A stretch of 64,000 nt of DNA from an uncultured Bacteroidota bacterium (GTDB lineage Bacteria; Bacteroidota; Rhodothermia; Rhodothermales; Salinibacteraceae): assembly GCA_913056185.1 (NCBI GenBank), contig CAJXLV010000005.1, forward strand, positions 61,124 through 125,123, read 5' to 3'. The notes beneath the pieces are model-generated. The model had not been told where the DNA came from and searched no databases. It was given only the letters and a program-made list of their open reading frames with translations. This document shows, piece by piece, positions 27,441 to 56,347 of this stretch (its first letter is position 1; each line of letters opens with the position of its first letter). A program made the position numbers and the translations under genes.

Positions 27441-27665
27441 CTTGGGAATGAGGAGTTGAGAAAAGAATTGGCATCTCCGCAATCTACAAAGCACACCGCC
27501 CCCGCCCAAGCGACTGTCTTGAAGCCAAGATGAGGTTGTGGACGATGCCCGAGCACGTTGACCCACCCCCCACCGGGGATCGAAGGGACAGCAGACTGGT
27601 TTCATGTGCGCGTCCATGCGTCCCCACATCCAGACGTCCACCCCCCTTCAGTCCGTCACGTCCCC

Positions 27666-30047
27666 ATGCCCACCTGCACCTACTGCGACGCCCCGAGCGA
27701 GGCCCCCGTGACGTCCGAGGACGTAGACGGCGTGTTCTGCTGCGGCGGCTGCCTGGAGGCGCACCGCGTCGCCACGGAACCCGAACGTCACGACCACGGC
27801 GATGAACACTGCTGCCACCACGATGACGACGGACACGACCACGCCTCCCCTCACGGAGCGCACGCCCCCGCGACGGAAACGGCGTTCCTCCACGTCCGCG
27901 GCATGCACTGCACCAGCTGCGAGGACTTCATCGAAACAGTCGCTGAGTCGACGGACGGGCTCCACGAGGCCGAGGCGAGCTACGCCTCCGACATGGCCAA
28001 GGTGGCGTACGACCCATCCCGGCATAGCGAGTCGGACCTCCCGGCCCTCCTCACGCAGGCCGGCTACGAGGCCCACCTGAAAGCGCCGGACGAGGACACG
28101 GCCGACCAAGACGCCGCTGTCCGGCTCGTGTTCGGCGGCTTTTTCACGATGATGGTCATGGCCGTGTACATCGTTCTCCTCTACCCCGTACACCTTGGCG
28201 GGGAGGGGCTCGTGGACCTCAGCGGCACGGGCGGCACGTACGCCCTCACCAACGTATGGGCCTACACCACCTTCGTCCTCCTCATGACCGGGTGGCCCAC
28301 GCTGCGGGGGGCGGCAGTGAGCCTGCGCGTGCTGCAGCCGAACATGGACCTGCTCGTGAGCCTGGCCGCCGTGAGCGCCTACCTGTACAGTGCGGGCGCG
28401 GTGCTCATGGGACAGACGGACGTCTATTTCGACGTGACGGTGGTCATCATTATGGCGGTGTCGCTGGGCCACTACTACGAGGATCAGGTGAAGCGCCGGG
28501 CCACCGACCTACTGAGTGCCCTTACCCGCGAGCAGGTGGACGAGGCGCGTCGGGCCACGGAGGCGGGCACAGAAACAGTGGCCGTCGACGCCCTCTCGCC
28601 GGGCGATCGGGTGTTGGTACGGGCGGGGGAGCGGATCCCGGTGGACGGCACGGTGGTGGACGGGCGCGCCGCCGTCGACGAGTCGCTGATGACGGGCGAG
28701 TCGCTGCCGGTGACGCGGGCAGAGGGGGACGACGTGATCGGCGGCGCCGTGGTGACGAACAACGCCCTGACGATTGAGGTGGGGGCTGCGGCCGAGAGCA
28801 CGCTCGACCGCCTCGTGAACCTCATGTGGAACATCCAGTCGAGCCAGCCGGGTGCACAGCGCGTGGCCGACCGCATCGCGGCCGTCTTTGTGCCGCTCGT
28901 GCTGGTGCTGGCGGCGGTGGCGTTCGGGTGGCAGCTCTGGAGCGGCGCCTCCGCCACCGCGGCCCTGCTCACGGGCCTCGCCGTCCTCATCGTGTCCTGC
29001 CCCTGCGCGCTGGGCTTGGCAACGCCGCTCGCCGTGGCTTCGGGCCTGCGGACGGCCCTGGAGAACGGCATTGTGGTGCGCGACGCCTCCCTCTTCGAGA
29101 CGGCGCCGGACGTGGACACGCTGGCGGTGGACAAGACCGGCACCCTCACCACGGGCGCCATGCAGGTGGTCGATGCCGTGGCCGACGACGCGGTGTGGCA
29201 ACGGGCCCGTGCCGTGGAGCAGCACGCCGCCCATCCCGTGGCTCGGGCCATCGTAGAGGCCGCTGCCCCTGGCGGCGACGGCGTTCCGGTCGGCGACGGC
29301 GCGCCGGCGACCGCCACCGACGTGCGCAGCCATCCGCGGGGCGTCGAGGGCCGCATCAGTGGCGATCGCGTGCGGGTGGGGCACCCCGAGTGGCTGCAGT
29401 CGGAAGGCCTCTCGATGAATGGTGATCTGACCGCCCGCGCCGAAACCGCTCAGGGCAACGCCCAGGTCCCGGTCGCGGTGGGGTGGAACGGTGCGGTGCG
29501 CGGCCTCATCGTGGTGGGCGACACGCTGCGCGACGAAGGCCTCGACGTGATGGACGCGCTGCGCGGCGACGAGCGAGAGGTGGTCGTCCTCACGGGCGAC
29601 AGCGCCGCGGCGGCCCGTCCGCTCCGCACCCAGGACGCCATCGATCGCGTGATCGCAGAGGTAAAGCCCGCCGAGAAGTCGGACATCATCCGGGGGCTGC
29701 GGGACGAGGGCGCCGTCGCCATGATCGGGGACGGCAGCAACGACGCCCCCGCCCTCGCCGAAGCAGACGTGGGCATCGCCTTCGGCCCCACCGCCCTCGC
29801 CGCCGATTCCGCCGACGTCGTCGTCCTGCGCGGCGACCTGACGCGGATTCCGACCGTCTTTTCCCTGGCGCAGGCGGCTCGCCGCCGCATCCGGCAAAAC
29901 CTGGCGTGGGCGTTCCTCTACAACGTCGTGGCCATCCCCCTTGCCCTGGCCGGCCTCATCAACCCCCTCTTCGCCGCCCTCGCCATGGCCGCCAGCAGCC
30001 TTGGCGTCGTCGGCAACTCGGCGCGCGCATTGCGCCAGGCCTCGTAA
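27666..30047 (+). CDS. Heavy-metal (copper-type) translocating P1B-type ATPase with Cys/His-rich N-terminus and HMA domain
   Basis: FCCGGCLEAH; HMA GMHCTSCEDF; SCPCALGLATPLA; DKTGTLTTG; GDGSNDAPAL. Confidence 0.93.
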   Translation: MPTCTYCDAPSEAPVTSEDVDGVFCCGGCLEAHRVATEPERHDHGDEHCCHHDDDGHDHASPHGAHAPATETAFLHVRGMHCTSCEDFIETVAESTDGLHEAEASYASDMAKVAYDPSRHSESDLPALLTQAGYEAHLKAPDEDTADQDAAVRLVFGGFFTMMVMAVYIVLLYPVHLGGEGLVDLSGTGGTYALTNVWAYTTFVLLMTGWPTLRGAAVSLRVLQPNMDLLVSLAAVSAYLYSAGAVLMGQTDVYFDVTVVIIMAVSLGHYYEDQVKRRATDLLSALTREQVDEARRATEAGTETVAVDALSPGDRVLVRAGERIPVDGTVVDGRAAVDESLMTGESLPVTRAEGDDVIGGAVVTNNALTIEVGAAAESTLDRLVNLMWNIQSSQPGAQRVADRIAAVFVPLVLVLAAVAFGWQLWSGASATAALLTGLAVLIVSCPCALGLATPLAVASGLRTALENGIVVRDASLFETAPDVDTLAVDKTGTLTTGAMQVVDAVADDAVWQRARAVEQHAAHPVARAIVEAAAPGGDGVPVGDGAPATATDVRSHPRGVEGRISGDRVRVGHPEWLQSEGLSMNGDLTARAETAQGNAQVPVAVGWNGAVRGLIVVGDTLRDEGLDVMDALRGDEREVVVLTGDSAAAARPLRTQDAIDRVIAEVKPAEKSDIIRGLRDEGAVAMIGDGSNDAPALAEADVGIAFGPTALAADSADVVVLRGDLTRIPTVFSLAQAARRRIRQNLAWAFLYNVVAIPLALAGLINPLFAALAMAASSLGVVGNSARALRQAS

Positions 30048-30053
30048 CCGTTG

Positions 30054-30875
30054 TCACCGCCGCTCTCGGCCCGCGCCGGTGGAGCCCCCCGGGGGCGGCG
30101 GCGCAGAGGACACTGGGCCCTCTTCCGGAATGTACGTTGTCTCTTCCACCGTCTTGTTGATATAGATCACGTCATACACCACGGAGTCGCTCCGCACCAC
30201 GTACACCATGTCTCGCACCCGCACAGTGTCCGGAGGGCCCATGTCTGGCGGCTCAAACCGCATCCTCGACTCGTCGTAGTTCCACATCTCGACCGTAAGC
30301 CCCTGATCGGTGCGTTCCAACAGCACGCTCAACGAATCGCCCGAGTAGTTGCGCTGCACCGCTTCCAGCAAGTCCGCCGTGATGCTGTACTGGGCCGGCT
30401 TGCGCAGCCCAGCCGCTCCGGCACGCACAGAATCTGACCGCGACGCCCCGGCCTGCGCCGTGTCGGGACGGAGCGAATCGGCCGCAATGAGCGCCCCGTC
30501 GTACTGAAACTCCGACTCCAGCCGCCAGCTGCTCATAATGTCCGCCACCCGCTCGGTGATCATGCCCGGCTGGATGTTAAACGTTTCTCCGGACGGATAC
30601 ACCACCACCAGGTCGTCTGGGCCGTATCCGTTTTCCGTCACGTCAATCACCTCGATGCGGCTCACGGAGTCGCGAGGAATGCGGGGGGTAATGATCAGTT
30701 CGTTCATCAGCCGGTTGATGGCCCCGCGCTGCGTAATCTGGGCCACTGGCCGGGTCACTTGTGTAAAGGCGGCCCCCCGCAGGCTGTCCATCGGGGCCTG
30801 TGCCCATCCCGCCAGGGGCATTAGGGCCGCCGCGGCCAGCAGCCCGGCCAAGAAACGTCGTGTGCAGTGCGTCAT
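30054..30875 (-). CDS. Secreted protein of unknown function (cluster distal gene)
   Basis: Signal peptide MTHCTRRFLAGLLAAAALMPLAGWAQ; follows the TPR lipoprotein gene by 24 nt. Confidence 0.75.
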   Translation of the reverse strand: MTHCTRRFLAGLLAAAALMPLAGWAQAPMDSLRGAAFTQVTRPVAQITQRGAINRLMNELIITPRIPRDSVSRIEVIDVTENGYGPDDLVVVYPSGETFNIQPGMITERVADIMSSWRLESEFQYDGALIAADSLRPDTAQAGASRSDSVRAGAAGLRKPAQYSITADLLEAVQRNYSGDSLSVLLERTDQGLTVEMWNYDESRMRFEPPDMGPPDTVRVRDMVYVVRSDSVVYDVIYINKTVEETTYIPEEGPVSSAPPPPGGSTGAGRERR

Positions 30876-30899: not shown

Positions 30900-32414
30900 T
30901 TATCGAGCCTCGCGTCGCAGCGCCATGAATCGCTTGCGGTAGGCAACCGCCTCCTCGCGGTTCCCGAGGCGACGGTGCTGGTTGACCAGGGTGCGGTAGA
31001 GGCGCATCTTGTCCTTCGTTCCCAACTCGTCCGGGCGCTGAGCGGCGCGCTCAAGGTAGTCGATGGAGGCTTCCACATCGTTGCGCAGGAGCTGCCCGAC
31101 CTCCAACTCGGCCAGCGCCCGCTGCTTCCATGCCACCGCGGCCGACTGTTTTAAGTATTTCAGAGCGGTGCGGAGGTTCTTGCGCCGGAACCGGCGGCCC
31201 AGGTTCAGGCAGATGGTGCCGTAGGTATTCAGGTATCGCTGCGTGGTGGAATCCGCGGCGGCGCTCGCAGTCGTGTCAGGGCGCGGGGCAAGGCGCTGCA
31301 CAAGCCGCTGCAATCGGTCGGCCGCCGGCTGGCGCTCGCCCAGCTGGTACTCAGCCTGGGCCAGGCGCCAGTCAACCTCGTTGCGGGCCGACGCGGTGCG
31401 GAGCTGTGATTTGAGCGCGCGAAAGCCTTCCGCAGCAGCGGCAGCGTCGCCGCGGCCCGCCAGCTGCTGCAAGGAGTCCCGCGCAAAACTGGCGGCGATA
31501 TTCCCGTCGTCCCAGTTGATCCACTCCACCCATCCCTGCATCGACCGCCGCTGGGCGGGGGTGATGGCATACGTCTTGGCCCGGCGGTAGGCCCGAAGCG
31601 ATTGCTCCGCCTCCCGCGCGTACCGAAATGCCTCCGCCTCCGCTCGGGCGTAGTTGTACACCCGCCCGGAGTCCACCCGGACAGAGTCCAGCGCAAGCTC
31701 TACCGATTCGAGATACGTATCGAGCGCCCGGCCGTAATTGGTCGCCGCTGCGTCGTAGCGCTCAATCTGGAAATAGACGTTGGCGAGACCGAGGTACAGG
31801 CCGGGCTGATCCTTCCGGAGACGCGTAAGCTTCTGATAGATGGCAATTGCCTTCTGGTAGTCTTCCTCGCGCCCCAGCCGATTTGCCCGTCGCTGGTACA
31901 CCTGCGCCAGCAGGCTCTGCGTGCCCTGGTCGTAGGGATTGAGCTGAATGGCCTCTTCAAATGCCGTCTGTGCGTTTTTCAAGAGGTCAGCCTGCATCTG
32001 GGCCAGCTTCGCACTGTCCAGCTCTGCCGCCCGCGTCACCTTTTGGTACTTAATCAACGATTTGGCACCGCGGTTGTAGGCGCGCAGGGCCTCCGCACGT
32101 CGGTCCTGGCCTACACTGTCGGCCGCACTCGTATCGGCGGCCAGGTCGAGATATTTCCAGAGCGTATCGCTCACCTCCACCAGTGAGTCCCCCCTCTCGA
32201 CTTGCGACCGGGCCTCCTGCTGTTTCTCCAGAGACACGAACGCGTCCTGTGCCATGGAATCGGCCCTCTGAGCCGTACTGCTGTCCACCCCTGGCGGCAC
32301 ATACGCACGAAAGCTACGGGAGGAGGCGTCCGGCGTAGGGGCTGTGGTGGGCTCGCTCGTCCCACATCCCACAAGAAGCACGGCAACGGCAAGAATCGAG
32401 AGCGATCGCATCAT
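30900..32414 (-). CDS. TPR-repeat lipoprotein
   Basis: Lipobox LLVGCG; TPR-like AIQLNPYDQGTQSLLAQVYQRRANRLGREEDYQKAIAIYQKL. Confidence 0.8.
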   Translation of the reverse strand: MMRSLSILAVAVLLVGCGTSEPTTAPTPDASSRSFRAYVPPGVDSSTAQRADSMAQDAFVSLEKQQEARSQVERGDSLVEVSDTLWKYLDLAADTSAADSVGQDRRAEALRAYNRGAKSLIKYQKVTRAAELDSAKLAQMQADLLKNAQTAFEEAIQLNPYDQGTQSLLAQVYQRRANRLGREEDYQKAIAIYQKLTRLRKDQPGLYLGLANVYFQIERYDAAATNYGRALDTYLESVELALDSVRVDSGRVYNYARAEAEAFRYAREAEQSLRAYRRAKTYAITPAQRRSMQGWVEWINWDDGNIAASFARDSLQQLAGRGDAAAAAEGFRALKSQLRTASARNEVDWRLAQAEYQLGERQPAADRLQRLVQRLAPRPDTTASAAADSTTQRYLNTYGTICLNLGRRFRRKNLRTALKYLKQSAAVAWKQRALAELEVGQLLRNDVEASIDYLERAAQRPDELGTKDKMRLYRTLVNQHRRLGNREEAVAYRKRFMALRREAR

Positions 32415-32449
32415 GCAAACGGGAAAACTGAAAAGATCTGTGCACAACG

Positions 32450-33505
32450 TCACACGTCTGCCTTCGCCTCGTCCCACCACGAAAGAAAGACGCTGTAGAA
32501 CTGCTTCGACTTCTGTCCCCTCGACTGGGCGCGGGTCTGCACCCCGATGATGGTGCCGCCGCTGCGGCGAATCGGCCCGACTCGAAACTTCCGGCTCTGC
32601 TTCTGGAAGCTGCGGTCAACCAGGTACTTGGCCTCTCCGTTCTGCACAAGGACTACGTGGATCTCGCGAAGATCGGGCTTGCACATGAGGTACATTTCGT
32701 ACTCGCCCTGACTCGTTGACAGGTCGCTAATCGTGGACGATAGAAAGCTGGGCTGGTACCCCACGAGCTGATTGATGCCAGGCGGGAGGGCGGCAGGATT
32801 CTGGCGCATCCACTGAATCAGCTTGCTCGCTTCTACGCTCGTATAGTCCTCCTGGCTGGCGTCCTGAATGGTTACCGCTGCCGCGCCGTCGCCTTCTGAG
32901 TCCGCCTCCTCCGCCCCCGCCGCGAGGGGACCGCCGCTCGCAAATGCGTCCTCGCCCCCGCCCCCGGATGATCCATCTCCGGCCTCCTCCACCGCGATGC
33001 CGGCCCCGCTGCCACTGCCGCCTGAAGGCTGCGACGGGGCGTTGGGCAGGGCCGCCGCCGTGGGCGAACGGGACGATTCGGATGCATCGAGCCCGCCCAC
33101 CTGAGTCCGCTCCACCGATACCTCGCCGCCGCCGGACGAGGCCTCCACCTCGGCCTCCGACTGCGCGTCCGCGGCCGCCGTGGCCTGGGGGGTGGGCTCT
33201 TGGGTGGGAGAGTTGAGCTGCAGGTCCGGCGCCTCGATCCGCTCCGGCGTTGTCTCCGGCTCTTCCTCCTGCGGCTCTTCCGGCTCCTCCTCCGGCTGCT
33301 CCGTGGACTGCTCCGGGGGGGGATCGGGGCGCAGCTGGGTGAGCTGCGCCGGGTCGATCTCCTTAAATGTGTCGCGGGGACTCCGAAATTCCGGCACGCT
33401 CACCACGGCCATCAACACCGAGGACAGCACCACCATGCCCACTGTTGCCAGTGCGGCGACGCGGCGCCGGACAGAACTGTCATCCCGAGGAGACGGTGTA
33501 ATCAT
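32450..33505 (-). CDS. TonB/TolA-like protein: single TM, Pro/Glu-rich spacer, non-canonical C-terminal domain
   Basis: TM VAALATVGMVVLSSVLMAVV then PDPPPEQSTEQPEEEPEEPQEEEPETTPE; directly after two ExbD-like genes. Confidence 0.65.
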   Translation of the reverse strand: MITPSPRDDSSVRRRVAALATVGMVVLSSVLMAVVSVPEFRSPRDTFKEIDPAQLTQLRPDPPPEQSTEQPEEEPEEPQEEEPETTPERIEAPDLQLNSPTQEPTPQATAAADAQSEAEVEASSGGGEVSVERTQVGGLDASESSRSPTAAALPNAPSQPSGGSGSGAGIAVEEAGDGSSGGGGEDAFASGGPLAAGAEEADSEGDGAAAVTIQDASQEDYTSVEASKLIQWMRQNPAALPPGINQLVGYQPSFLSSTISDLSTSQGEYEMYLMCKPDLREIHVVLVQNGEAKYLVDRSFQKQSRKFRVGPIRRSGGTIIGVQTRAQSRGQKSKQFYSVFLSWWDEAKADV

Positions 33506-33507
33506 GG

Positions 33508-33933
33508 CTACAGCTGAAGCTCACTCTTATTGATGTTTTTGGCGATGCCCAGGCGGTCGCACACGTCCATCACGTCGACGGTGTGCTGTACGGCCGACTC
33601 GTCGCTGGGCTCAATCAGCACAATGGGGCGGCGGTCGTTGCCCTCAAGCCGGTCCTTCGTTGCACGCAGACAGTCTTCCAGGGCGGCCCGCCCGTCTGGG
33701 GCACAAATCTCTTCTGCAGGCTCCACTTGTCGCACGACGAATTGCCCCGCCTTTGCCACATCCACCCGCACGAACGTAAGCGACTGCTGCTGCGACGCCT
33801 CGCTCTGCTCTGGCGGCTTGTTGGGCATCTCGATGTGCGTGAACGAGCTGATGTCGCTGATCCAGAGAAACCCGAGCAGCAAGATGAGCCCAATGTCGAT
33901 AAACCGAATCAAAAATCCGCTGCTGCTGAGCAT
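33508..33933 (-). CDS. ExbD/TolR-like protein (copy 2)
   Basis: RFIDIGLILLLGFLWIS TM helix with ExbD-type Asp; 141 aa; next to copy 1. Confidence 0.7.
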   Translation of the reverse strand: MLSSSGFLIRFIDIGLILLLGFLWISDISSFTHIEMPNKPPEQSEASQQQSLTFVRVDVAKAGQFVVRQVEPAEEICAPDGRAALEDCLRATKDRLEGNDRRPIVLIEPSDESAVQHTVDVMDVCDRLGIAKNINKSELQL

Positions 33934-33948
33934 AGAGGGAAAGAACCG

Positions 33949-34344
33949 TTAGCGTGAGCGATTAATTTCGACCTCGATGGACTTCGGAATGCCAAGCTGT
34001 TTGCAGATCTTGGCCGCCTGCATAAGGTAGTAAATTGGGGCTGTCTGGCTGCTGCGGAGGCGCGCTTTCATCTCCGCTCGGCCGAGGGCGTCTCGCTTCT
34101 GCCGTAAGAATGTCCGGAGCTTCGCAGGGGTGCGCAGTGTTCGGCGTTCATCCTCCACGAGAAACGACCCGTCGTTTTGGATGCTCACAAAAACGATTTG
34201 GCTCGGGTCGATGTTTTTGTAGGGGGCCTCAGAACTCTCCGGGGGCTGCACGCTGCTGGGCTTGATGCTGGAGATGCAGATGAACCCGAAGAGCAGAATG
34301 AGCACGATGTCGACGAAGCGTAGCAGGTATCCGGCCTGTCCCAT
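33949..34344 (-). CDS. ExbD/TolR-like protein (copy 1)
   Basis: RFVDIVLILLFGFICISSI TM helix with Asp; 131 aa; downstream of ExbB-like gene. Confidence 0.75.
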   Translation of the reverse strand: MGQAGYLLRFVDIVLILLFGFICISSIKPSSVQPPESSEAPYKNIDPSQIVFVSIQNDGSFLVEDERRTLRTPAKLRTFLRQKRDALGRAEMKARLRSSQTAPIYYLMQAAKICKQLGIPKSIEVEINRSR

Positions 34345-34420: not shown

Positions 34421-35947
34421 CTATTGCCCCAGCGTCATGGCCTGAAACTGCACCGTCTCACTCCCGATGCTCGCTTCTACGGTGTTTAGCCCGGGCTCTG
34501 CGCCGACGGCGAAAGGCACCGCCGCCTGCCCTTCCTCGTCGGTGGTTACCTCTTGGGTTTGCGCCCCGTCGCCAAAGGTGCCCCCGCCGGAGACGACCTC
34601 AAACCGGACGGTGTGGTCGGGAACGGGATTTTTGTATTCGTCGGCCAGCGCCACGAGGAGGGGATTGGGCAGTTCCTGCCCCCCGGCCGCGCCCTGGTTG
34701 TTGCCCTGGGTGCGGTAGTGGTGGGGCGCCGCGGGGCGGGCCTGTACGCTGAGGGTGCGAGCGGCCGATGCCTCAGCGCCCGGCAGCTGGGCCTCCGCCG
34801 TGCAACGGCCCGCCGCCTCGGGCAGCGCCCAGTCAAACTGCACCGTACCGTCTTCCTCTGTCCGCAGCGTCACCTCGGCATGGCTTCCGTTGAGGGTGCC
34901 GTCGTCCGCCCCTACCCGTACCTGTACCGGCACATCAGGGACAGGCGTGCCGTCTTCTGCCGCGGCCCGGAGCTGCACCGCAGACAGCTCGGTCCCGACC
35001 ACGCCCTCCTTCGGAATGCCAACGAGCTCCAGGCGCTGGGGCGTGGGGGGGGCGGCAGTTGCCGTGGCGGAGGCTGTGGAGGCCGGGACGCCTGCGTCCG
35101 GCGCGCCCGCCGCACTGGCTTCCGCGGGCGAGGGGGCCGCCGGGGACGCCTGCCCGTCTCCGCTGCCGTCCGGGACGGAGCCCTCGGCGGCGGCGCCGTT
35201 TTTATGGGGCGACAACTCCAGAAGGCGGAAGCGCAACTCATCGCCCTCGTCCTCAATCTGATCGATGCGGCTGTCGAAGAAGCTGTAGACTTCCGTCGAG
35301 ATGAGGTTGAGGGTAATGCTCGCAATGAGTCCCAGGAGCGTCGAAATCAGCGCAACGCCCATGCCCCCAAGGATGGCCTGCTTGTCGCTGATGTTGCCAC
35401 CGTAGAAGAGCGTAAACATGCCCCATACGGTTCCGAGCAGGCCCACGGCGCCCGCCGTGTCCGCCAAGAAATCGACCCGCCGCTTAAACGTATCGAACCG
35501 CTCGCGCTGCGACTGCACAAAGTTGGCCACCTCCTCGTGCAGGGTTCCGGCGTCCTGGGTGGTGCGATACACATTCAGCAGCGTCGCGTGCATCTCCGCA
35601 AGCATGCTCTGCTGCTGGTCCTGCACCAAGTCCACGATCTCCTGCGTGCCCATCTCCGGAATGTGCGCCTCCTCCAGTGCAGCCCCCGCCCAGCGGTCCT
35701 GAAACAGCTCGTACACCTTCGCGAGGATGAGGAAGAGCCCGATCGCCAGGATGCCCAAAATGGGCCATTGGAAGCCCCCTGCCTTTCCAATAATGTTCCA
35801 CAGAACGAGCCCGCCCTCCGAGCCCGCCGCGGCCGTTGTGTCGGCGGCTTGCTGGGCATAGCTGACGCCTGCAGGGCCGCCAATCAGGAATAGAGTGACA
35901 AAAGCAATCCGAAAGCACGTATTCATTGCGCGCATGGGCCAGTTCAC
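34421..35947 (-). CDS. MotA/TolQ/ExbB proton channel protein with C-terminal Ig-like (Big_1-type) extension
   Basis: VGLLGTVWGMFTLFYGG...GGMGVALISTLLGLIASITLNLIS; then Ala/Pro linker and two Ig-like segments including LPNPLLVALADEYKNPVPDHTVRFEVVSGGGTFGDGAQTQEVTTDEEGQAAVPFAVG. GTG start or in-frame ATG downstream. Confidence 0.85.
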   Translation of the reverse strand: MNWPMRAMNTCFRIAFVTLFLIGGPAGVSYAQQAADTTAAAGSEGGLVLWNIIGKAGGFQWPILGILAIGLFLILAKVYELFQDRWAGAALEEAHIPEMGTQEIVDLVQDQQQSMLAEMHATLLNVYRTTQDAGTLHEEVANFVQSQRERFDTFKRRVDFLADTAGAVGLLGTVWGMFTLFYGGNISDKQAILGGMGVALISTLLGLIASITLNLISTEVYSFFDSRIDQIEDEGDELRFRLLELSPHKNGAAAEGSVPDGSGDGQASPAAPSPAEASAAGAPDAGVPASTASATATAAPPTPQRLELVGIPKEGVVGTELSAVQLRAAAEDGTPVPDVPVQVRVGADDGTLNGSHAEVTLRTEEDGTVQFDWALPEAAGRCTAEAQLPGAEASAARTLSVQARPAAPHHYRTQGNNQGAAGGQELPNPLLVALADEYKNPVPDHTVRFEVVSGGGTFGDGAQTQEVTTDEEGQAAVPFAVGAEPGLNTVEASIGSETVQFQAMTLGQ

Positions 35948-37767
35948 TTTTTGTTAGGAGCAGGATCGTCGTCGGTGCGGATCTCGATGGCGTCGGACGG
36001 GGCCTCCAGGACGCCGGGTTGTTGTGTCACTTCGAAGGTGATTTTCCGGACGGTTTTCTGGACGGTGAATTTTTTCTTGTTCGACCGGTAGGTGCGCCCG
36101 TTCAGGCCCTCCCATTCCAGGACGTAGGTGTATACGCCCTGGTCCAGCGGCTCGCCCTGGTCGTCGGTCCACGACCACGTCAGCTGTGCAGGCGGCACGC
36201 CGCGCCCACGGAAGAGGCGCACCGGCACACCGGCCCGGTCCTGGATGCGGACGCGCCAGAGGCCGTCTCGCCCCTTCAGGTAGGGGAAGAGGAGCGTAAA
36301 GGTGGTGCGTTCGGGGTTAAGGATGTGCAGGCGCGTTTCTCGCGGAAGGCGGAGAGAGTCGGCAGGCGCGGCGGCGGCGGTGTCCGTCGGCGCAATCACG
36401 CGAAGCTGCTCCGGAGACAAATCGGTGGTTTCGCGGAGACGGTTGTACAGCCCGTAGGTCCGGAGGCTGTCCTTTGCGCCCGCAATGAGCTGTAGCGTAT
36501 TGGGCGACTGGGCAGCGAGGCGCTGCGAGAGCCGGCCGAAGGTGGAATCGTACGTCGCCGTGAGCACATCGGGGAGCTTCACGTAATCGGGCACAGCGTC
36601 GACGGGCCGGCCGGGCGTGCGGCCACGCGTGGAAGCAAAGCTGCTGTCGAGGCGCCCCAGGCCTTGCTCTGCCAGGGCCGCCTCTACGGCCGGCGGCACG
36701 TCCACGGCACGCTCCACCCGCTTTTCCAGGTGCTGCATGGTGGGGTGCGGAGACGAGATGTACAGGCTTGGGCGCAGGCGTGGCGCGACCTCCGTTCGCT
36801 CCGCCTCCAGCATCAGTGACGGTGGCTCCGGCATCTCCGGCGGCTCCGGCGCCCGGCCAAATTCGTACACCACCCCAAACCGGTGGGAGCCAGTGGAGGC
36901 GCTGCGCAGGGACGAGGTCGGCAGGGTGTACTGATAGTTTACGCTCAGCGGCCCCCCGACATGCAATTGTCCCTCCACGCGGCCGGTGTTGAACATCGCG
37001 TCGCTCCCCACCCGCACGTATGAGCCGTCGGTCGAGTACGCCTCCACGCCCGCCCGCACGTCCAGTCCATACTCGCCGTGCGACACTTCCGCCCGCGCCC
37101 GGATGGGGCCGACGGCATAGGACGCGCCCCCAAAAATCTCCGGTTCGGCCCGGAAGGTGCCACCTCCGAGAGCGAGATTGGGCCGGTTGAGATTGCGCAC
37201 CCCCGCGGCAAGATTGAGCGCGGGCAGCGGCTTGGCAAACAGCCCAAGCGTGCCGGTAAGCGTGGTTTTGCCCGTGCCTTGCTCAAACACCGGATCGGGC
37301 TCTACCCCTACGAACTCGCTTCGGTTGTACGACAGGTTGAGGGCCGAGACCCGCGCCCCGACCGAGAACACCTGCAGGAAGCGCCCCGAGACGCTCAGCC
37401 CAAACGCGCGCTTCTTAAAAATGGGCGTGTCAAAATAACGGACGGCGCCCCCCACTCCCAGCCAATCGCCCACCAGGAATGGGGTCGAGGCCGCAAGGTA
37501 TCCCTGCCGCAGCGGCACCCCCGATGCGCTGCCCAGGCCTACGTGGTGCGCCTTGGCACCCAGCGCAATTTGTGTACGGTGAAACCCCATGGTGGCGGGA
37601 TTGCGCAGCATCGACGTTGCATCGTCGAGCGCCATGGACGGCCCCGTGATGAAGCGCTGCGCGTGGCTTATAGGCGGCAACAGCGCGCCGACCAGCAGCA
37701 GAAGAGCGCCCCAGGCCCATCCAGAATGTCTGGAAACGTCAATCATGCTGTGTATCCCGTTTCCCAT
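35944..37767 (-). CDS. PorP/SprF-like outer-membrane protein with extended C-terminal region
   Basis: Signal peptide; ITGPSMALDDATSMLRNPATMGFHRTQIALGAKAHHVGLG...; barrel-like repeats, FlgD-like WSWTDDQGEPLDQGVYTYVLEWEG near C-terminus; start overlaps upstream stop (TAATG). Confidence 0.65.
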   Translation of the reverse strand: MGNGIHSMIDVSRHSGWAWGALLLLVGALLPPISHAQRFITGPSMALDDATSMLRNPATMGFHRTQIALGAKAHHVGLGSASGVPLRQGYLAASTPFLVGDWLGVGGAVRYFDTPIFKKRAFGLSVSGRFLQVFSVGARVSALNLSYNRSEFVGVEPDPVFEQGTGKTTLTGTLGLFAKPLPALNLAAGVRNLNRPNLALGGGTFRAEPEIFGGASYAVGPIRARAEVSHGEYGLDVRAGVEAYSTDGSYVRVGSDAMFNTGRVEGQLHVGGPLSVNYQYTLPTSSLRSASTGSHRFGVVYEFGRAPEPPEMPEPPSLMLEAERTEVAPRLRPSLYISSPHPTMQHLEKRVERAVDVPPAVEAALAEQGLGRLDSSFASTRGRTPGRPVDAVPDYVKLPDVLTATYDSTFGRLSQRLAAQSPNTLQLIAGAKDSLRTYGLYNRLRETTDLSPEQLRVIAPTDTAAAAPADSLRLPRETRLHILNPERTTFTLLFPYLKGRDGLWRVRIQDRAGVPVRLFRGRGVPPAQLTWSWTDDQGEPLDQGVYTYVLEWEGLNGRTYRSNKKKFTVQKTVRKITFEVTQQPGVLEAPSDAIEIRTDDDPAPNKK

Positions 37768-40700
37768 TAGCGTGCAAGCGTGATGTGGCCGGACGAAACC
37801 GTCTCGCCCCCGTCCTCCACGACGTATAGGTACACCCCTGGGGGTTGCCCATCGCCTCCAGAATCGGTACCATTCCACCGGAGCTCTCCGGCCTGGAGCT
37901 GGTCGATGGTGCGCAGCTCTCGCCCCTCAAACGTGTAGATCCGCAGCACAGGCTGCCGCAACCCAAACTCGCTCACCTTGAACCGGACAGTGTCGTTAAT
38001 GCCGTCTCCGTTCGGGGTGAACGGATTGGGCGCTACCGACAGCTGGTCGGGGCGCTGAACGGTAAGGGTTAGCACTGCAGTGTTGTTGTCCAACCGCCCC
38101 CGCTCGTCAACCTGCTCCTCCGGATCCACTTCGCAGCGAATCTCCGTGCGGCCCTCTTGCGGAAATGCGATCGATATGGTTGGCGTCTGCGCGGCCGCCC
38201 CCACCCCCAATCCCTCCACGGTCTGGGATTCTACGGTCGTCCCTCCCCGCGAGACGCGCACCTGGAACGGGCCCGCATCGGCAGAGCCCTGGTTGGCATA
38301 GTCGCAAACAACCCCCAGCGTGTCATCGATCTGGACGTTATCGGCACTGCGCCCGACGCTCCGAAGATCTTCGGCGACCAGGTCGGGCGCCGGGGGCGGC
38401 TGGACCGTCAGCGTGCGCTCCACGACATTATTGGTCGTTCGCCCACGCTCGTCCACCTCTCCCTCTGCGTCCGCCGTACAGCGGATGGTTACCGTCCCCG
38501 CGGCCACCAGCGGAACGGTCGTCGTGTCCGTTTGCACCGTGGCCCCCACCGACAGCGAGTCCACCGTCTCCTCTTGCACCCGCGCGCCGTTGCGGGCAAT
38601 CCCCACCAAAAACGACCCCGCCCCCTCACTGCCCGCATTCGAGATCGTGCACGCCACCGCCACCGAATCCGTCACGCGCAGCGGACTCGGCACCTCCCCC
38701 ACCAAGTCCAGCGACTCCGCGACCAGGTCGGGCGCCGGGGGAGCAAGCACCTCGATCGTTCGCTCCACCCGATTGTTGTCCTCCCGTCGTTCGTCCACCT
38801 CCGCGTCCGCGTCCACAACACAGGCCAGCCGTGCGGTGCCCGGCGTCGGAAACGATACCTGGACCGCTTCCGCGCGAACCGTCGCCCCCGTCGCCAGGGA
38901 ATCGTAAGAGCGAGTCTGCACCCGATTGCCGTCCCGCAAGACGGCGAGGGAGAAGGGGCCGCTCGTGGTGTCGCCCTGGTTGGAAAACTCACACACCACC
39001 CCGCGGCGTTCGGTCGCACGTACGGTATCGTCAGGGCCGTCCACAATGTCCAGCGCCTCGGCCACGAGGTCCGCCTTCAGGGGCGCGGTGCTCCCCCGAA
39101 GCACCACCTTCGTCGTATCGGCGCCACAGTTGCCAGACGTGATTACCGCCGCGGTGTCGACATAGGCACGGTTTGGCTCCGGTGGATCGAACCGAAAGGT
39201 GGCCGTTCGCCCCCCTCGATCCGGAATGAGCGCAGGCATCTGCTCCACAGCAAACGCCGCGCCATCAAGCCCCAGCACTGTATCGACCTGCGCGTCGATA
39301 TTGCCGTCGTTCTCGAGGGTGGTTTGACGCGTTGCCGTACTGCCGGCGTAGACCTCCCCGAAGGAGAGAGTGTCCGGGATGGCGGCAATAGCCGCCTCTA
39401 CGCCGGTGCCCGACAGGTTGATGGACACGCCCTGTGTCCCCATCGCCGTTCCAGTCTCTTCGGTCAGCTCCAGCACCAAGCTGCCCCCGTAAAGGCCACG
39501 CTGTGTGGGGGCAAAGGCAATCTCAAGCGCGCGGCTCTGGTCCGGCGCCAGGGTATCGGGGACGGAGGAGACCAGCGCAAAGCCGTCGGGAACCGACAGC
39601 GCACGCACCACCAGCGGCCGATTCGTGAGATTGGTCACGGACACGGTCGCTGTGCTATCATCGCCCACGCACACTTCCCCAAATGCAACCTGCGTGCGAC
39701 TCACGATGCCAAGTCCCGGGCGTCCACCTTGGTTTCTGAGAACCTGAAGACGGCCGCCCGATTGGTCGGCCACTACGTAGTCCTGGTCCTCATCCCGGTC
39801 GAGGTCCAGTGCGGCCCCGCCCACCGGCGGAAAGGCGGTTTTCACGAGGCGATCCGGAATAAACTCGTCGTTGTCTCGGTTGCCCGCAACCTGTACCGTA
39901 TCCTGGGGGGAGTGGGTGCTAAACAGGTCCAGATCATAGGTCGATTCCTGCTCCGGGTCCACATCCGCAAGGCCGACAGTGCGGGCGGGAGACGACGGCG
40001 ATGCAATGTCCTGCCGGTCGAACGCAAACTCGCCCGTGCCCCGGTTCGCAAACCCGAGCACCCGGTCCTGGTCTTGGCCGGCAACCACCAAATCCACCCA
40101 TCCATCCCCCACCGTTCCCCCCTGCGTTCCGAACACATCCCGCGCCGCAAGCACAGCCGGCACGAAGGGCAGCGACTGGCGCCCCGCCCCGACCGAAAAC
40201 GTGCCGGCACCCTCATTCTTGAGCCAAAGGATCGCCTCCTCCGCAGCACTCGTCACGAGCAGATCCAGGTCTCCATCCCGGTCCACGTCCCGCGCAACAA
40301 CACTGGTGAGCGCCGCGCTTCCGACGGTCGGCTGCCCCTCGGAAAACCCACCAGTGCCGTCGTTCACGTGCACCACACTTCCGCTTCCACCAAACGGCGT
40401 GACGACAAGGTCCGGGGCTCCGTCCCCAGTTACATCTGCAATCTCTACGTCCGTGGGCCGTGATCCTGTCGGCACCCGAGAGATGCTCCACCCGCTCGGC
40501 TCGTTCAGAAGGATGCCGAGGGAATCTTGAAAGCTGTGTACCGTCACAAGATCGGGCCGCCCATCGCCGTTCACATCCCCCTGCGCAAGGGTGACCGCCC
40601 CCGGCATGGAAATCAACGACGCGTTGGAGAGCGTACTTCCATATCGCACCTGCACAGTGTCACTGGGTTGATGCACGACCGCGACATCGGCCCGTTGGTC

Positions 40701-41252
40701 CTCATTGAAGTCTGCCGACACCACCGCCGACGGGATGGACACGCCTCCCACCTTCACAGGCGGTGCCTCCGCCTCGGCCCCTGCTCTTGCCAGCGCCTGC
40801 GGCCTCTGCACGGGCGGCTCCGGCTCGAAGATGCCGGTTCCGTACTCGGTACGAACCGTGAACTGCCACACGTACGGCGCCCCGATCGGCGTGCCCCCCA
40901 CCTGCAGGTCCTCGGAAAGCACCACCGTCACCTGCTCTCCCGGGCGAAAAGGCTCATCGGGCACGTACAAAAGCGTGTCCCCCGTCGGCCGCCCCGTCCC
41001 TGAGATGCGTCCGGAACGGCTGCCGTACACGTCAACCAGGTCTTGCCCGGGCGGGATCTCCACCGCCCCCGCGAACTCGACCCGCACAGAGTCGGTCGGC
41101 TCCGCCACGACCGACCCCTGAGCCGGCGCGACGGCCTGGACCTCACCCGTCTGCGCGTGGGCCTGGGACAACGCCACCGCGCCCCACAGCCCACAGAAAA
41201 GAAGGAGCACGAGCCACCACCGGCCCGTCGCGCTCAGAGCGCTTGCCATCAT
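37767..41252 (-). CDS. Large secreted protein with FG-GAP/VCBS-like repeats, CARDB-like repeats and a T9SS type-B/FlgD-like C-terminal domain
   Basis: DFNEDQRADVAVV, GDVNGDGRPDLVTV repeats; three PDLVAE.. units; C-terminus VAPNPFTPNGDGINDTVRFKV...GVYLYVVEDGGETVSSGHITLAR. Confidence 0.85.
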   Translation of the reverse strand: MMASALSATGRWWLVLLLFCGLWGAVALSQAHAQTGEVQAVAPAQGSVVAEPTDSVRVEFAGAVEIPPGQDLVDVYGSRSGRISGTGRPTGDTLLYVPDEPFRPGEQVTVVLSEDLQVGGTPIGAPYVWQFTVRTEYGTGIFEPEPPVQRPQALARAGAEAEAPPVKVGGVSIPSAVVSADFNEDQRADVAVVHQPSDTVQVRYGSTLSNASLISMPGAVTLAQGDVNGDGRPDLVTVHSFQDSLGILLNEPSGWSISRVPTGSRPTDVEIADVTGDGAPDLVVTPFGGSGSVVHVNDGTGGFSEGQPTVGSAALTSVVARDVDRDGDLDLLVTSAAEEAILWLKNEGAGTFSVGAGRQSLPFVPAVLAARDVFGTQGGTVGDGWVDLVVAGQDQDRVLGFANRGTGEFAFDRQDIASPSSPARTVGLADVDPEQESTYDLDLFSTHSPQDTVQVAGNRDNDEFIPDRLVKTAFPPVGGAALDLDRDEDQDYVVADQSGGRLQVLRNQGGRPGLGIVSRTQVAFGEVCVGDDSTATVSVTNLTNRPLVVRALSVPDGFALVSSVPDTLAPDQSRALEIAFAPTQRGLYGGSLVLELTEETGTAMGTQGVSINLSGTGVEAAIAAIPDTLSFGEVYAGSTATRQTTLENDGNIDAQVDTVLGLDGAAFAVEQMPALIPDRGGRTATFRFDPPEPNRAYVDTAAVITSGNCGADTTKVVLRGSTAPLKADLVAEALDIVDGPDDTVRATERRGVVCEFSNQGDTTSGPFSLAVLRDGNRVQTRSYDSLATGATVRAEAVQVSFPTPGTARLACVVDADAEVDERREDNNRVERTIEVLAPPAPDLVAESLDLVGEVPSPLRVTDSVAVACTISNAGSEGAGSFLVGIARNGARVQEETVDSLSVGATVQTDTTTVPLVAAGTVTIRCTADAEGEVDERGRTTNNVVERTLTVQPPPAPDLVAEDLRSVGRSADNVQIDDTLGVVCDYANQGSADAGPFQVRVSRGGTTVESQTVEGLGVGAAAQTPTISIAFPQEGRTEIRCEVDPEEQVDERGRLDNNTAVLTLTVQRPDQLSVAPNPFTPNGDGINDTVRFKVSEFGLRQPVLRIYTFEGRELRTIDQLQAGELRWNGTDSGGDGQPPGVYLYVVEDGGETVSSGHITLAR

Positions 41253-41253
41253 G

Positions 41254-42276
41254 CTATTCGTCCTCATCGGTTCGTACACGCTGTAGGCGAGTCCGGAGCT
41301 CGTTCACGGCGGCCTCATCGCCGAGTCGTTCGTACGCAATCACCAGCCGCTGCAGGGCCTGCAGGTCGTCGGGGCGCCGCTGCAAGACGCGACGGTAGGT
41401 CTGTGCCGCCGCCTCTGCGCGTCCCAGCGCTCCGTAGGCCTCTCCCAGTGCCCGAAGCACCTTCACGGAGGTCTCTCCACCGGCCAGCCGCTCCAGCAGG
41501 GGCAGGGCTTGCCCGTACTTCTCACGGTTGAACAGCAGAAACGCATAGTCACGGCGCACCGTGGACGACGGTGCGGTCTGGAGCAGCTTGTCAAACGCCC
41601 CGAGCGCCTCGGGCCACTGCTCGGTCTCCACAAACGCATACGCCAGTCGCTTACGAATCCGGGGCTGGGGCGACGACTGCTCCAGGGCACGCCGACCGTA
41701 CCGAATGGCTGCAGAGTAGTCGTCGGCCTCCGCCGCCAAGGCCGAAAGGTTGTTGAGGAGCTCAATGTCCTCGGGCGCCATCTCCAGCGCCTCGCGGTAG
41801 GCGGCCCGCGCCTCCTCGGGGCGCCCCGCCTCCACCCGCACCTGCCCCAGGGCTTTCACCGGTGCCACATTGTCCGGTTGGATCACCCGCACGGCCTGAA
41901 AAGCCGCCTCCGCCGCTCCATACGCGCTGCTCTCCAGCGCCTTCGTCCCCGTCGCAAACTCCTCGCGGGCGTGCTTCTGCTTCACATACCGGATTTGCTC
42001 GGCAAATCGTGGAGACTGTGCCCGAGAAGCGTCGAGAGCAGAGATGCCCTTCTTGTACGCGCCCTCGCGCATGTACAACCGCCCGAGTAGAAAATGGGCT
42101 TCTGCATTTTCCGGCTCGCTACGCGTGGTCTGCACGAGCAACTGCTTCGCGGCTGCCGTATCGTTCATCCGCTCGTAATTGCTGATGCGGCGGGCAAGAT
42201 CGCTCTCACACCCCCCAAGCACCACCATCACGGCCAGGAGCAAAGGCAACCGATACGGTAACGCAGAAGGAAGCAC
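41254..42276 (-). CDS. TPR-repeat lipoprotein
   Basis: Lipobox MVVLGGCESD; multiple TPR units (AEAHFLLGRLYMREGAYKKGISALD; PRIRKRLAYAFVETEQWPEALGAFDKL); GTG start. Confidence 0.88.
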   Translation of the reverse strand: MLPSALPYRLPLLLAVMVVLGGCESDLARRISNYERMNDTAAAKQLLVQTTRSEPENAEAHFLLGRLYMREGAYKKGISALDASRAQSPRFAEQIRYVKQKHAREEFATGTKALESSAYGAAEAAFQAVRVIQPDNVAPVKALGQVRVEAGRPEEARAAYREALEMAPEDIELLNNLSALAAEADDYSAAIRYGRRALEQSSPQPRIRKRLAYAFVETEQWPEALGAFDKLLQTAPSSTVRRDYAFLLFNREKYGQALPLLERLAGGETSVKVLRALGEAYGALGRAEAAAQTYRRVLQRRPDDLQALQRLVIAYERLGDEAAVNELRTRLQRVRTDEDE

Positions 42277-53377: not shown

Positions 53378-56347
53378 ATGCCCTCTCTGCTCCCTGGCTC
53401 AGGGTTTTCCCGATGGCTTTTTGGAACCGCTTTTTTCCTCCTCGTTGTCCCCTTCTCGGCCACCGCCCAGGACACAGCCGTAGTCACCGGCACGGTGGTG
53501 GACGGCGCACAGGGCACGCCCCTGCCGGGCGCCAACGTGGCCTTTCGCACGGAGGAGACAGCCGCAATTGCCGGGGCCTCCACAGACGCTGACGGGTCGT
53601 TCCGAATTGAGGGCCTTGCCCCGGGGGCGTACACCGTCGAGGTTCGGTTCGTCGGGTACGAGGCCCGAACGGTCTCGGTAACGCTCACCGCAGGGAGCAC
53701 GCGCACGCTGGACGTGAAGCTGTCGCCGGCCACCCAGAGCCTCGAGACGATCGTCGTGTCCGCCTCCCGCCGGCAGGAGAAGATCTTGGATGCGCCCGCC
53801 TCCATCTCCGTCCTGCAGCCGGAGGAGATCCAGCGCGAGGTCAACACCTCCTCGATTGAAGCCATCCGGTCGGCCCCGGGCGTCGACATGGCACAGACCG
53901 GCATCGACCGGCGTGAGGTCGTGCTGCGCGGCTTCAACGAAGCGTTCAGCGGCTCCGCCTACGTGCTCACCGACTACCGCGAGGCGGCGGTGCCCTCGCT
54001 GGCCGTAAACCTCCACGCCATCATGCCCAACATGTCCACCGATATCGAACGGATGGAGGTGGTGCGCGGGCCCGGCTCGGCCCTCTACGGGCCCGGTGTG
54101 GACAGCGGCGTCATCCACTACTTCACCAAAGACCCCTTCCAGTACCCGGGCACGACGGTCTCCGTCGCGGGCGGCTCGCGCGAGTACTTCGCCGGGCAGT
54201 TTCGCAACGCCGGCACCTTTACCGACAACCTCGGCTACAAAGTCACCGGCCAGTACGCCCGCGCCGACGAATGGGGGCTCGATCCCAGCGACGCTCCCGA
54301 CGCCCGCGAGATTGGGCGGTACCGTGTCTACGAACAGCAGAGTCAGGTGCCCGACGGGCGCGACGTTCAGGAGGCCGACCTCGACGACGACGGTGATAAC
54401 GAATTTCAGCTGCGTCGCGAAGACCTCTACCAGAAGTTTAACGTCAACGGCCTGCTGCAGTACAAACCGGGCGACGCAACCACCCTCTCCCTCAACGGCG
54501 GCTACGCGGAGCTGACGGGCGTCGTGCAGTCCGGCATCGGCACGCTCCAGGCGGACGGGTTCGGGTACGCCTACGGGCAGCTTCGCGTCCAGTCCGGCGG
54601 GCTGTTCGGGCAGTTCTACCTCAACGCCAACAATTCCGGCACCGACACCTACGTCTACGGCTCCGGGGACCGCGTCATCGACGAGGGACTGCAGTGGAAC
54701 GGCCAGTTGCAGTACGATTTCGACCTCGCCTCGCTGGGCACGCAGATGGTGACGGGCGTCGACGCCGACATTGTGGTGCCCCGCACGGACGGGCGCATCG
54801 TGGGACGCAACGAGGGCAGCGACCGCATCGAGGCGTACGGCGGCTACGTGCAGACGACCACGGGCCTCACCGACCGGCTCGAACTGACCCTGGCCGGGCG
54901 GCTCGATTACAACAACGTCGTGGAGACCCTGCAGCTCTCCCCCCGCGCCGCACTGGTCTACAAGGCGACCCCGCAGAACACCGTCCGCGCCAGCTACAAC
55001 CGCTCCTTCTCCTCCCCGGGCACCAACTCGCTGTTCCTCGACATTGAGGCCCAACGACAAACGCTCGGCTCCACCCCCGAGGGAGAACCTCTCGACTTTG
55101 TGCTTCAAGGCCTCGGAGCGGCAGAGGGGTTCTCGTTCGAAAATTACAACCAGGACGGCACCGTTCGCTTCTCACTCCCCGTGCCAGGGTTTTTCAATCA
55201 GGCGGTTCGCATCAGCAGCCTGCCGTACTACCCGATGCACGCCGCCGTGGCAAGTCAGGCGCTGACGGACGAGGGGGGGTTTACCCCTCAAATCTCACAG
55301 CTGTTGTCCCAGAACGGCGTTCCGTCCTCCCAGCAGAACACGCTAGCAACCCTCTTCGGCTATCTGGCCCAGACCCCGGGCGTGCTGAGCGGCACGTCCG
55401 TGTCTCGCGCCTCGGTCCAGCTCGGCATTCCTGACGACAGCGACGACGGCTTCTCCCCCCAGGAAAACCCCGAGCGGGTGCCAAACATTCCGCCGCTCGA
55501 CCAGACGATCACTCAGACGTTTGAAGTAGGCTATAAGGGCGTGATCTCCGATCGCGTGATCCTCAACATTGACGGGTACTACGAGCGCAAGGAGGACTTT
55601 ATCGGTCCGCTCGTGGTCGAATCCCCCCTGGCGTACCTGCAGCAGCAGGGGCTTACCCAAGAAGGGGCTCAGGCACTCGGGACGGCGTTCGCCTCAACGA
55701 GCGACCCAACCGTCCAGAACCTTCTCGGTAATTTGCAGGCCGCCGGCCTATCCCCGCAAGACGTGGCGGGCCTCTTTGGCACAATCACCGGCACCGGCCT
55801 CAACAATACCCCCGCGGCCGTTGTCCAGCCGGACCAGCAGGTGCTGCCGGGCGGTGGGGGTGCGAATGCCGTAGGCGGCTTCCTCAGCTACCGCAACTTC
55901 GGAACGGTGGAGTACTGGGGCCTCGACGCCTCGGTGCAGGTGCAGGCCACCGATCAGCTCGACGCCTTCGCGAACGTGTCGATCGTCAGCGACGACTTTT
56001 TCGACAACGAGGAGCTCGACGAGGCGAACCAGGACCTGAGCGTGGCCCTCAATGCGCCCTCGTTCAAGGCGAAGGGCGGGGCCGACTACCGCTTCGACGA
56101 CCTGGGCCTGTCGGTGGGCGCCTCCGGCAACTACGTCGAGGGCTTCCCGGTGGAGACCGGCCCGTACGTGGGCGAAGTGGACAGCTACTTCCTCCTCGAC
56201 GCCCGCCTCGGGTACGATTTTTCGGCCATTCCGGGGCTGCGCGGCAACCTGACGGTCAAAAACGTCCTCAACAACGAGCACCGCGAGTTTGTGGGGGCGC
56301 CGGAGCTGGGACGCCTGATTATGGGCCGCCTCACCTATTCGCTATAG
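53378..56347 (+). CDS. TonB-dependent receptor with CarboxypepD_reg-like N-terminus
   Basis: Signal peptide; GTVVDGAQGTPLPGANVAF; plug domain VVLRGFNEAFSGSAYVLTDYRE, IERMEVVRGPGSALYGPG; terminal RLIMGRLTYSL. Confidence 0.94.
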   Translation: MPSLLPGSGFSRWLFGTAFFLLVVPFSATAQDTAVVTGTVVDGAQGTPLPGANVAFRTEETAAIAGASTDADGSFRIEGLAPGAYTVEVRFVGYEARTVSVTLTAGSTRTLDVKLSPATQSLETIVVSASRRQEKILDAPASISVLQPEEIQREVNTSSIEAIRSAPGVDMAQTGIDRREVVLRGFNEAFSGSAYVLTDYREAAVPSLAVNLHAIMPNMSTDIERMEVVRGPGSALYGPGVDSGVIHYFTKDPFQYPGTTVSVAGGSREYFAGQFRNAGTFTDNLGYKVTGQYARADEWGLDPSDAPDAREIGRYRVYEQQSQVPDGRDVQEADLDDDGDNEFQLRREDLYQKFNVNGLLQYKPGDATTLSLNGGYAELTGVVQSGIGTLQADGFGYAYGQLRVQSGGLFGQFYLNANNSGTDTYVYGSGDRVIDEGLQWNGQLQYDFDLASLGTQMVTGVDADIVVPRTDGRIVGRNEGSDRIEAYGGYVQTTTGLTDRLELTLAGRLDYNNVVETLQLSPRAALVYKATPQNTVRASYNRSFSSPGTNSLFLDIEAQRQTLGSTPEGEPLDFVLQGLGAAEGFSFENYNQDGTVRFSLPVPGFFNQAVRISSLPYYPMHAAVASQALTDEGGFTPQISQLLSQNGVPSSQQNTLATLFGYLAQTPGVLSGTSVSRASVQLGIPDDSDDGFSPQENPERVPNIPPLDQTITQTFEVGYKGVISDRVILNIDGYYERKEDFIGPLVVESPLAYLQQQGLTQEGAQALGTAFASTSDPTVQNLLGNLQAAGLSPQDVAGLFGTITGTGLNNTPAAVVQPDQQVLPGGGGANAVGGFLSYRNFGTVEYWGLDASVQVQATDQLDAFANVSIVSDDFFDNEELDEANQDLSVALNAPSFKAKGGADYRFDDLGLSVGASGNYVEGFPVETGPYVGEVDSYFLLDARLGYDFSAIPGLRGNLTVKNVLNNEHREFVGAPELGRLIMGRLTYSL

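Follow-up and report, generated by a model that had tools for sequence, protein, structure and literature searches.

An open question about 5:2 motors is whether their pentamer is held or controlled from the cytoplasmic side, and by what means, and the locus described here bears on it: it encodes an ExbB/TolQ-type motor subunit that ends in two tandem Ig-like domains of invasin type, domains that are otherwise extracytoplasmic. What such domains do on a proton-channel subunit, and on which side of the membrane they stand, is the question that the locus raises. It lies in a stretch of 64,000 nucleotides, hereafter the window, from an uncultured bacterium of the Salinibacteraceae (Bacteroidota; Rhodothermia; Rhodothermales), and an earlier note on the same DNA had drawn attention to it from the letters of the sequence.

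Cytoplasmic extensions of the motor pentamer are already known from GldL and ZorA. ExbBD-like motors with paired ExbDs (AglRQS), or with unusual transducers such as those of vWA type (PMC12204202), are known as well. As for the present architecture, the earlier note had advised checking that it was not already catalogued; no published description was found of a Big_1 tail on ExbB, of the nine-gene operon or of slippage in exbB, and a literature search on ExbB with Ig-like domains and TolQ gave nothing besides a paper on Poribacteria (PMC5087111). The 2025 stator survey in mBio does not mention Ig-like or immunoglobulin domains, nor is ExbB or TolQ mentioned in the main text of the 2013 survey of conserved frame transitions.

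The ExbB-Ig protein

The exbB-Ig frame starts with a GTG at 35947, which shares 4 nt with the TGA of the gene upstream, and runs to a stop at 34421; the earlier note had these ends right, while the strand is here corrected to minus. Both motifs that the note had picked out, VGLLGTVWGMF and GGMGVALISTLLGLIASI, are found in the product. Regarding its layout, ExbB-Ig begins with a cleavable-looking signal peptide (residues ∼1–31, by inspection), continues with the ExbB core (∼45–250) and a disordered Ala/Pro linker (∼249–300), and closes with Ig1 (∼302–404, MG4-like) and Ig2 (∼405–508, Big_1). Three Pfam profiles match above their cut-offs: MotA_ExbB at residues 127–231 (E 3.8e-14, 53 bits against 22.9), MG4 at residues 324–383 (E 3.4e-7, 30.8 bits against 24.7) and Big_1 (PF02369) at residues 417–498 (E 9.3e-10, 38.9 bits against 34.9).

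The AlphaFold2 model, built on a nine-sequence alignment, has a confident helical ExbB core, a linker that is disordered over residues 249–298 (pLDDT < 50), and an all-beta region, residues 301–508, that forms two beta-sandwich domains with pLDDT of about 77–96. In comparisons with the PDB (Foldseek and VIA-align), residues 48–254 superpose on E. coli ExbB (5sv0; Z 16.3, rmsd 3.2, 207 aligned), and residues 298–508 on the adhesin FdeC (Z 13.6, rmsd 2.9, 192 aligned), followed by invasin and intimin. These profile and structural matches bear out the claim that an ExbB/TolQ unit and two Ig-like domains share one protein; the lack of an Ig-like fold in residues 310–508, which the earlier note had named as grounds for dropping that claim, is not what was found, because the matches to FdeC, invasin and intimin cover the region. 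By its profile and its modeled fold, Ig2 is an invasin-type bacterial Ig domain. MotA_ExbB and Big_1 both match in 12 of the 12 aligned fusions, and T173 and T203, the threonines of the channel, do not vary among them.

ExbB-Ig scores far less well against the equivalogs for ExbB and TolQ proper, TIGR02797 (23.7 against a cut-off of 206.2 bits) and TIGR02796 (30 against 221 bits); it shares the superfamily with ExbB/TolQ, and not the equivalog.

A nine-gene operon

Among nine consecutive minus-strand genes, numbered in operon order in Table 1 and separated by intergenic gaps of −112 to +76 nt, exbB-Ig comes fourth.

Table 1. Genes of the exbB-Ig operon, with their positions in the window
Gene	Position	Strand	Length (aa)	Product	Basis
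1	41254..42276	(-)	340	TPR lipoprotein	Pfam TPR; lipobox GGC by inspection; conserved neighbor
2	37767..41279	(-)	1170	Large surface protein with FG-GAP, CARDB, choice-of-anchor D and a C-terminal type-B type IX sorting domain (CHU_C)	Pfam
3	35944..37878	(-)	644	PorP/SprF-like outer-membrane barrel protein with C-terminal FlgD-Ig-like part	Remote profile matches
4	34421..35947	(-)	508	Motor subunit of ExbB/TolQ type ending in tandem Ig-like domains (ExbB-Ig)	ORF, Pfam, AlphaFold2, Foldseek/VIA; fusion conserved in relatives
5	33949..34344	(-)	131	ExbD/TolR-like subunit 1, membrane Asp kept (RFVDIVLILLFGF)	Pfam ExbD 5.8e-9; conserved beside exbB
6	33508..33933	(-)	141	ExbD/TolR-like subunit 2, membrane Asp kept (RFIDIGLILLLGF)	Pfam ExbD 6.4e-10; conserved neighbor
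7	32450..33505	(-)	351	TonB-shaped putative force transducer	Membrane helix at the N-terminus; linker rich in Pro and Glu; C-terminal domain (∼211–351) conserved in relatives
8	30900..32480	(-)	526	TPR lipoprotein	Pfam TPR; lipobox LVGC by inspection; conserved neighbor
9	30054..30875	(-)	273	Small secreted protein, signal peptide by inspection	Conserved neighbor

The motor that these genes specify is, with high confidence, of the ExbBD/TolQR kind, as indicated by the MotA_ExbB match together with two ExbDs in Pfam, the ExbB fold, the invariant T173 and T203, and the retained ExbD aspartate. The type-B CTD gene and the PorP-like gene stand side by side. The product of the former is, by its profile, type-B cargo of type IX secretion, with CHU_C above its cut-off (33.1 against 27 bits) and TIGR04131 just below (29.1 against 35 bits). 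As for the barrel, the kinship to PorP/SprF suggested by the profiles is a remote one and no more, because the window protein lies under the cut-offs (TIGR03519, E 2.3e-5, 24 against 90.55 bits; PF11751, E 0.015, 15.3 against 22.3 bits) and its homologue in one KSB1 locus (L070) lies above (42.6 against 22.3 bits). The secreted protein of gene 9 has no family match in Pfam or NCBIfam.

The product of gene 7 has the layout of TonB and TolA, with a membrane helix, a long Pro-rich linker and a globular C-terminal domain, as seen in its sequence and alignment. The C-terminal domain (window 32450–32893, minus strand) is conserved at the same place in relatives and across phyla, and is modeled (pLDDT 86) as three helices, six strands and one helix. 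Pfam has no match to the protein, this domain included, and in the PDB the domain has none at a Foldseek E ≤ 0.001 (best E 0.035; best VIA Z 5.9); a TonB/TolA or vWA fold was considered for it and set aside, no convincing PDB match having been found, which does not imply that the fold is new. The SxHxLxS motif, defined as the motor-binding motif of TonB and TolA (PMC12204202), was not found by inspection in the membrane helix of any of the eight aligned rows. By its position, the protein is the best candidate for carrying force to the outer membrane.

Two other genes of the window may be mentioned. A heavy-metal P-type ATPase with an N-terminal HMA domain (27558–30047, plus strand) adjoins the end of the operon and is convergent with it, and a TonB-dependent receptor-like protein (53378–56347, plus strand) carries at its N-terminus a CarboxypepD_reg domain with some likeness to Big_1 as well.

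Side of the membrane

The earlier note had weighed two topologies, an altered one and one with the Ig domains in the cytoplasm, and had likened the tail to the periplasmic force-transmitting rod of GldM/PorM. The second topology is favored here: the Ig domains are expected in the cytoplasm because the ExbB fold ends there, and three observations combine to make this the most likely location. The core is a full ExbB fold with its three customary membrane helices, and is colinear with structures that have a cytoplasmic C-terminus; a hydropathy scan showed none of 15 fusions to have another membrane helix after TM3 and ahead of the Ig domains; and in seven genomes in which the gene is split (see below), the Ig part comes straight after the C-terminus of ExbB, out of frame with it, and has no signal peptide. 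Judged by fold and sequence, the Ig domains of ExbB-Ig would thus very probably be cytoplasmic.

An inverted ExbB topology, or an extra membrane pass, would instead put the tail in the periplasm. Such a placement would suit Ig domains that are normally extracytoplasmic and whose structural matches here are outer-membrane adhesins, and a model for it exists, since GldM is a periplasmic rod with Ig-like domains. It is nevertheless very unlikely, given the whole ExbB fold with its usual helices, the lack of any further helix ahead of the Ig part in the 15 fusions scanned, and the signal-less Ig frame behind the A-tract of the split genes; besides, the operon already encodes a periplasm-spanning candidate. 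The rod is not supported and was rejected: the Ig domains are predicted to lie across the membrane from where a rod would stand, and the part predicted to span the periplasm consists of separate proteins, namely the TonB-shaped protein (gene 7) and the two ExbDs.

Distribution and states of the tail

The fusion also occurs in other species of the genus, in other families and in another order, and its four closest relatives are 49–56% identical over nearly the full length. Judged by this conservation across species, families and another order, and by the presence of both profiles in all 12 aligned fusions, it is not a chance event. Other species of the genus share the gene order, as do other families of the order, and it recurs in a further order of the class (Rhodothermia, Bacteroidota); the operon, in part or whole, extends to KSB1, Krumholzibacteriota and two unclassified bacterial MAGs; the run PorP-like, ExbB, ExbD, ExbD, TonB-shaped, TPR recurs, again in part or whole, in many loci. 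Strong matches among 296 sampled Bacteroidota genomes came from the window's class only, and 3 of the 13 genomes of the window's own genus carry the operon. ExbB matches at 1e-8 are present in 20 of 49 genera, the operon in fewer.

Three states of the tail were distinguished, leaving out one locus (L036) that ends at a contig edge. In the first, one or two Ig domains are fused to ExbB (the window, L032–L035, L037–L039, L059–L062, L066, L068 and L069). In the second, ExbB is tailless and has the same or similar neighbors (family f3, with ExbB frames of about 220–270 aa, and L058, L070, L071 and L072). In the third, found in seven genomes of one Balneolaceae-type genus (L051–L057), ExbB and the Ig part are split by an A-tract. 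In a tree of the ExbB core, the split genomes form one clade (100/98), with fusions as the sister rows (85/80), and since this clade is nested among fusions, a single origin of the split from a fused ancestor is probable; the deep branches of the tree are long and poorly resolved, so that the number of tail gains and losses is not settled by it. The tailless relatives, with the same or a similar operon, show that the basic motor can dispense with the tail.

The surroundings of tailless ExbB vary. Family f3 loci, which belong to the window's order (L040:8370–12328, minus strand; L043:8530–12851, minus strand), have ExbB, ExbD, ExbD and the transducer beside secreted proteins of about 800 and 290 aa and small DUF4402-like secreted proteins, which replace PorP and the CHU_C protein; the set resembles a chaperone-usher pilus, the usher being a guess, and usher Pfam profiles gave no match on these neighbors. 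The KSB1 versions of the operon (L070:3535–7397; L071:10811–14037) have secreted CHU_C-like or vWA/FlgD-Ig proteins between the tailless exbB and exbD.

A split frame behind an A-tract

Each of the seven split genomes closes its exbB frame with CAA AAA AAA AAN and a stop 2–4 codons after the A-run, which is A10 in six genomes (e.g., L051:7073–7082) and A11 in one (L053); throughout the 79.5 kb of the split loci, these tracts are the only A or T runs of at least 10. From the tract, the Ig frame is open for 116–267 codons, in the −1 register in six genomes and the +1 register in one (L057). Its dN/dS is about 0.1–0.45, mostly 0.15–0.28, with synonymous sites near saturation in many pairs, and that of ExbB in the same genomes is about 0.05–0.1 in the more distant pairs; by this measure, the split Ig frame is under purifying selection.

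Poly-A tracts are recognized slippage sites in bacteria (PMC1088944), and Citrobacter rodentium offers a close precedent: in its tssM, transcription slips on an A11 that precedes the stop, both protein forms and their ratio being required (PMC4256274). The likeness to TssM extends to the poly-A just before the stop, the C-terminal domain in a shifted frame and the two length forms, which here are predicted; the machine is a different one, and the present tract is conserved in seven genomes. At all seven loci an A-run of at least nine precedes the stop and the downstream frame is open and under selection, the features sought as marks of programmed transcriptional slippage, and it is likely that slippage on the tract would yield tailed and untailed ExbB from one gene.

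The split might otherwise reflect a homopolymer error in sequencing or assembly, A10 runs being error-prone on some platforms, or a separate Ig protein with a start of its own inside exbB or shortly after it, for which L051 offers a TTG and L057 an out-of-frame upstream ATG. Either explanation would have to hold for seven genomes, two of them separately named Balneolaceae/Balneolales MAG records (L064, L065); a single uniform error in run length is excluded because the correction needed differs among the genomes, and the other five (L052–L056) have no ATG, GTG or TTG ahead of the interior of the Ig region. With purifying selection on the Ig frame added, error or a separate start appears a good deal less probable than programmed slippage.

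Comparison with known motors

The present system shares with ExbB-ExbD-TonB and TolQ-TolR-TolA the ExbB/TolQ fold, the ExbD/TolR partners and a TonB-shaped third protein with a membrane helix and a Pro-rich linker. It differs from them in having two different ExbDs, an Ig tail on ExbB and scores far below the ExbB/TolQ equivalog cut-offs; further, its transducer has a C-terminal domain without a TonB/TolA match and a helix without SxHxLxS, and its operon adds the PorP-like barrel and the type-B CTD protein.

ZorA of Zorya is likewise a MotA/ExbB-like subunit with a long cytoplasmic extension. The ZorA profile matches ExbB-Ig weakly and in the core region only (4.4e-5, 20.7 bits), and the two ExbDs have no PADLOC match, so an identity with ZorAB was rejected. 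We know of no Ig tail in AglR-AglQ-AglS, the gliding motor of Myxococcus. In composition, rather than by tree, that motor is close to the present one, with one TolQ-like and two TolR-like proteins that drive a surface machine (PMC9389320), whereas its outer-membrane partners are different. In Poribacteria, a protein annotated as MotA/TolQ/ExbB with a carboxypeptidase regulatory-like domain (PMC5087111) also joins ExbB to a beta-sandwich domain beside ExbD and ExbD*, but the domain is CarboxypepD_reg, the report is an annotation mention only, and the region is that of a microcompartment.

As for GldL-GldM and PorL-PorM, they too form a proton motor that works with PorP/SprF and type-B CTD proteins, and a cytoplasmic tail of the pentamer has been proposed as its anchor (PMC9389320). 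GldL differs from ExbB-Ig in its two membrane helices and its conserved Glu (PMC8986121), and the periplasmic shaft resides in GldM, which was not found in the order: the GldM profile (PF12081) matches in 0 of 113 genomes, and in a phylum-wide sample the same model matches in 14 of 61. SprA (SprA_N) is present in 109 of the same 113. The operon might then be taken for the core motor of type IX secretion, a reading that this pattern favors, as do the type-B CTD protein and the PorP-like barrel encoded in it. The pattern could also arise if the Pfam model misses diverged GldM, and most SprA genomes, including 10 of 13 in the window's genus, lack the operon; for this last reason the operon is not a general type IX motor, and the reading, highly improbable, was rejected.

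Proposed machine and role of the tail

In our preferred reading, the products of the operon form a proton-driven 5:2 motor that works on a complex of surface protein and barrel, and the Ig tail anchors or regulates this motor from the cytoplasm; the probability of the reading as a whole is put at roughly one in two. Five ExbB-Ig would surround one or two kinds of ExbD, and the motor, driven by the proton gradient, would pull through the TonB-shaped transducer and the TPR lipoproteins on the PorP-like barrel and the type-B CTD surface protein. These two are the likely target, since a barrel and a surface protein of these kinds bind one another in P. gingivalis and F. johnsoniae (PMC9143113). 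From each tailed ExbB, a flexible linker of about 50 residues and two invasin-type Ig domains would extend into the cytoplasm.

Regarding the tail, its simplest function would be to hold or regulate the pentamer, by analogy with GldL: a review points out that GldL would rotate to no effect if the pentamer had no anchor, for which its cytoplasmic tail may serve (PMC9389320). The Ig tail may similarly attach the pentamer to some partner in the cytoplasm, to keep it from rotating or to set the on/off state or the location of the motor; this anchoring or regulatory role is offered tentatively, and no such partner was identified within the operon. The tail would not be needed on each subunit, given the mixed forms expected from A10 slippage in one Balneolaceae-type genus and the tailless relatives, a combination that would be consistent with a part of which few copies suffice or for which another solution can stand in.

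A simpler account would make the tail a passive add-on, a common Ig module recombined onto exbB and tolerated without a specific job. The rest of the motor is indeed kept in tailless relatives, and the tail evolves faster than ExbB (49% identity to L003 against 67% for ExbB; dN/dS about 0.2 against about 0.08). Yet the fusion has been kept across families, one order boundary and apparently phyla, its Big_1 domain persists in all 12 aligned fusions, and the Ig frame is under purifying selection even out of register, all of which makes a tail without function unlikely.

In conclusion, the locus places adhesin-type Ig domains on what is predicted to be the cytoplasmic side of an ExbBD-type motor, and may belong to an undescribed class of proton-driven trans-envelope machines in Rhodothermia, KSB1 and relatives, in which invasin-type Ig arms would serve as an anchor or clutch and the number of arms would be set genetically: five in the fusions of most lineages, a fraction through A10 slippage in one genus, and none in tailless forms; this wider proposal is put forward as possible rather than probable. 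With SprA near-universal and GldM undetected in the order, the question also arises of what powers type IX secretion in the class. Discrete, foldable Ig arms in the cytoplasm, together with relatives that naturally lack them and a mixed state predicted for one genus, would make the anchoring of the pentamer a testable question, and the operon, in which a PorP-like barrel and a surface protein are joined to a motor of ExbBD type, suggests a powered device of the cell surface beyond nutrient uptake, Tol-Pal and GldLM.
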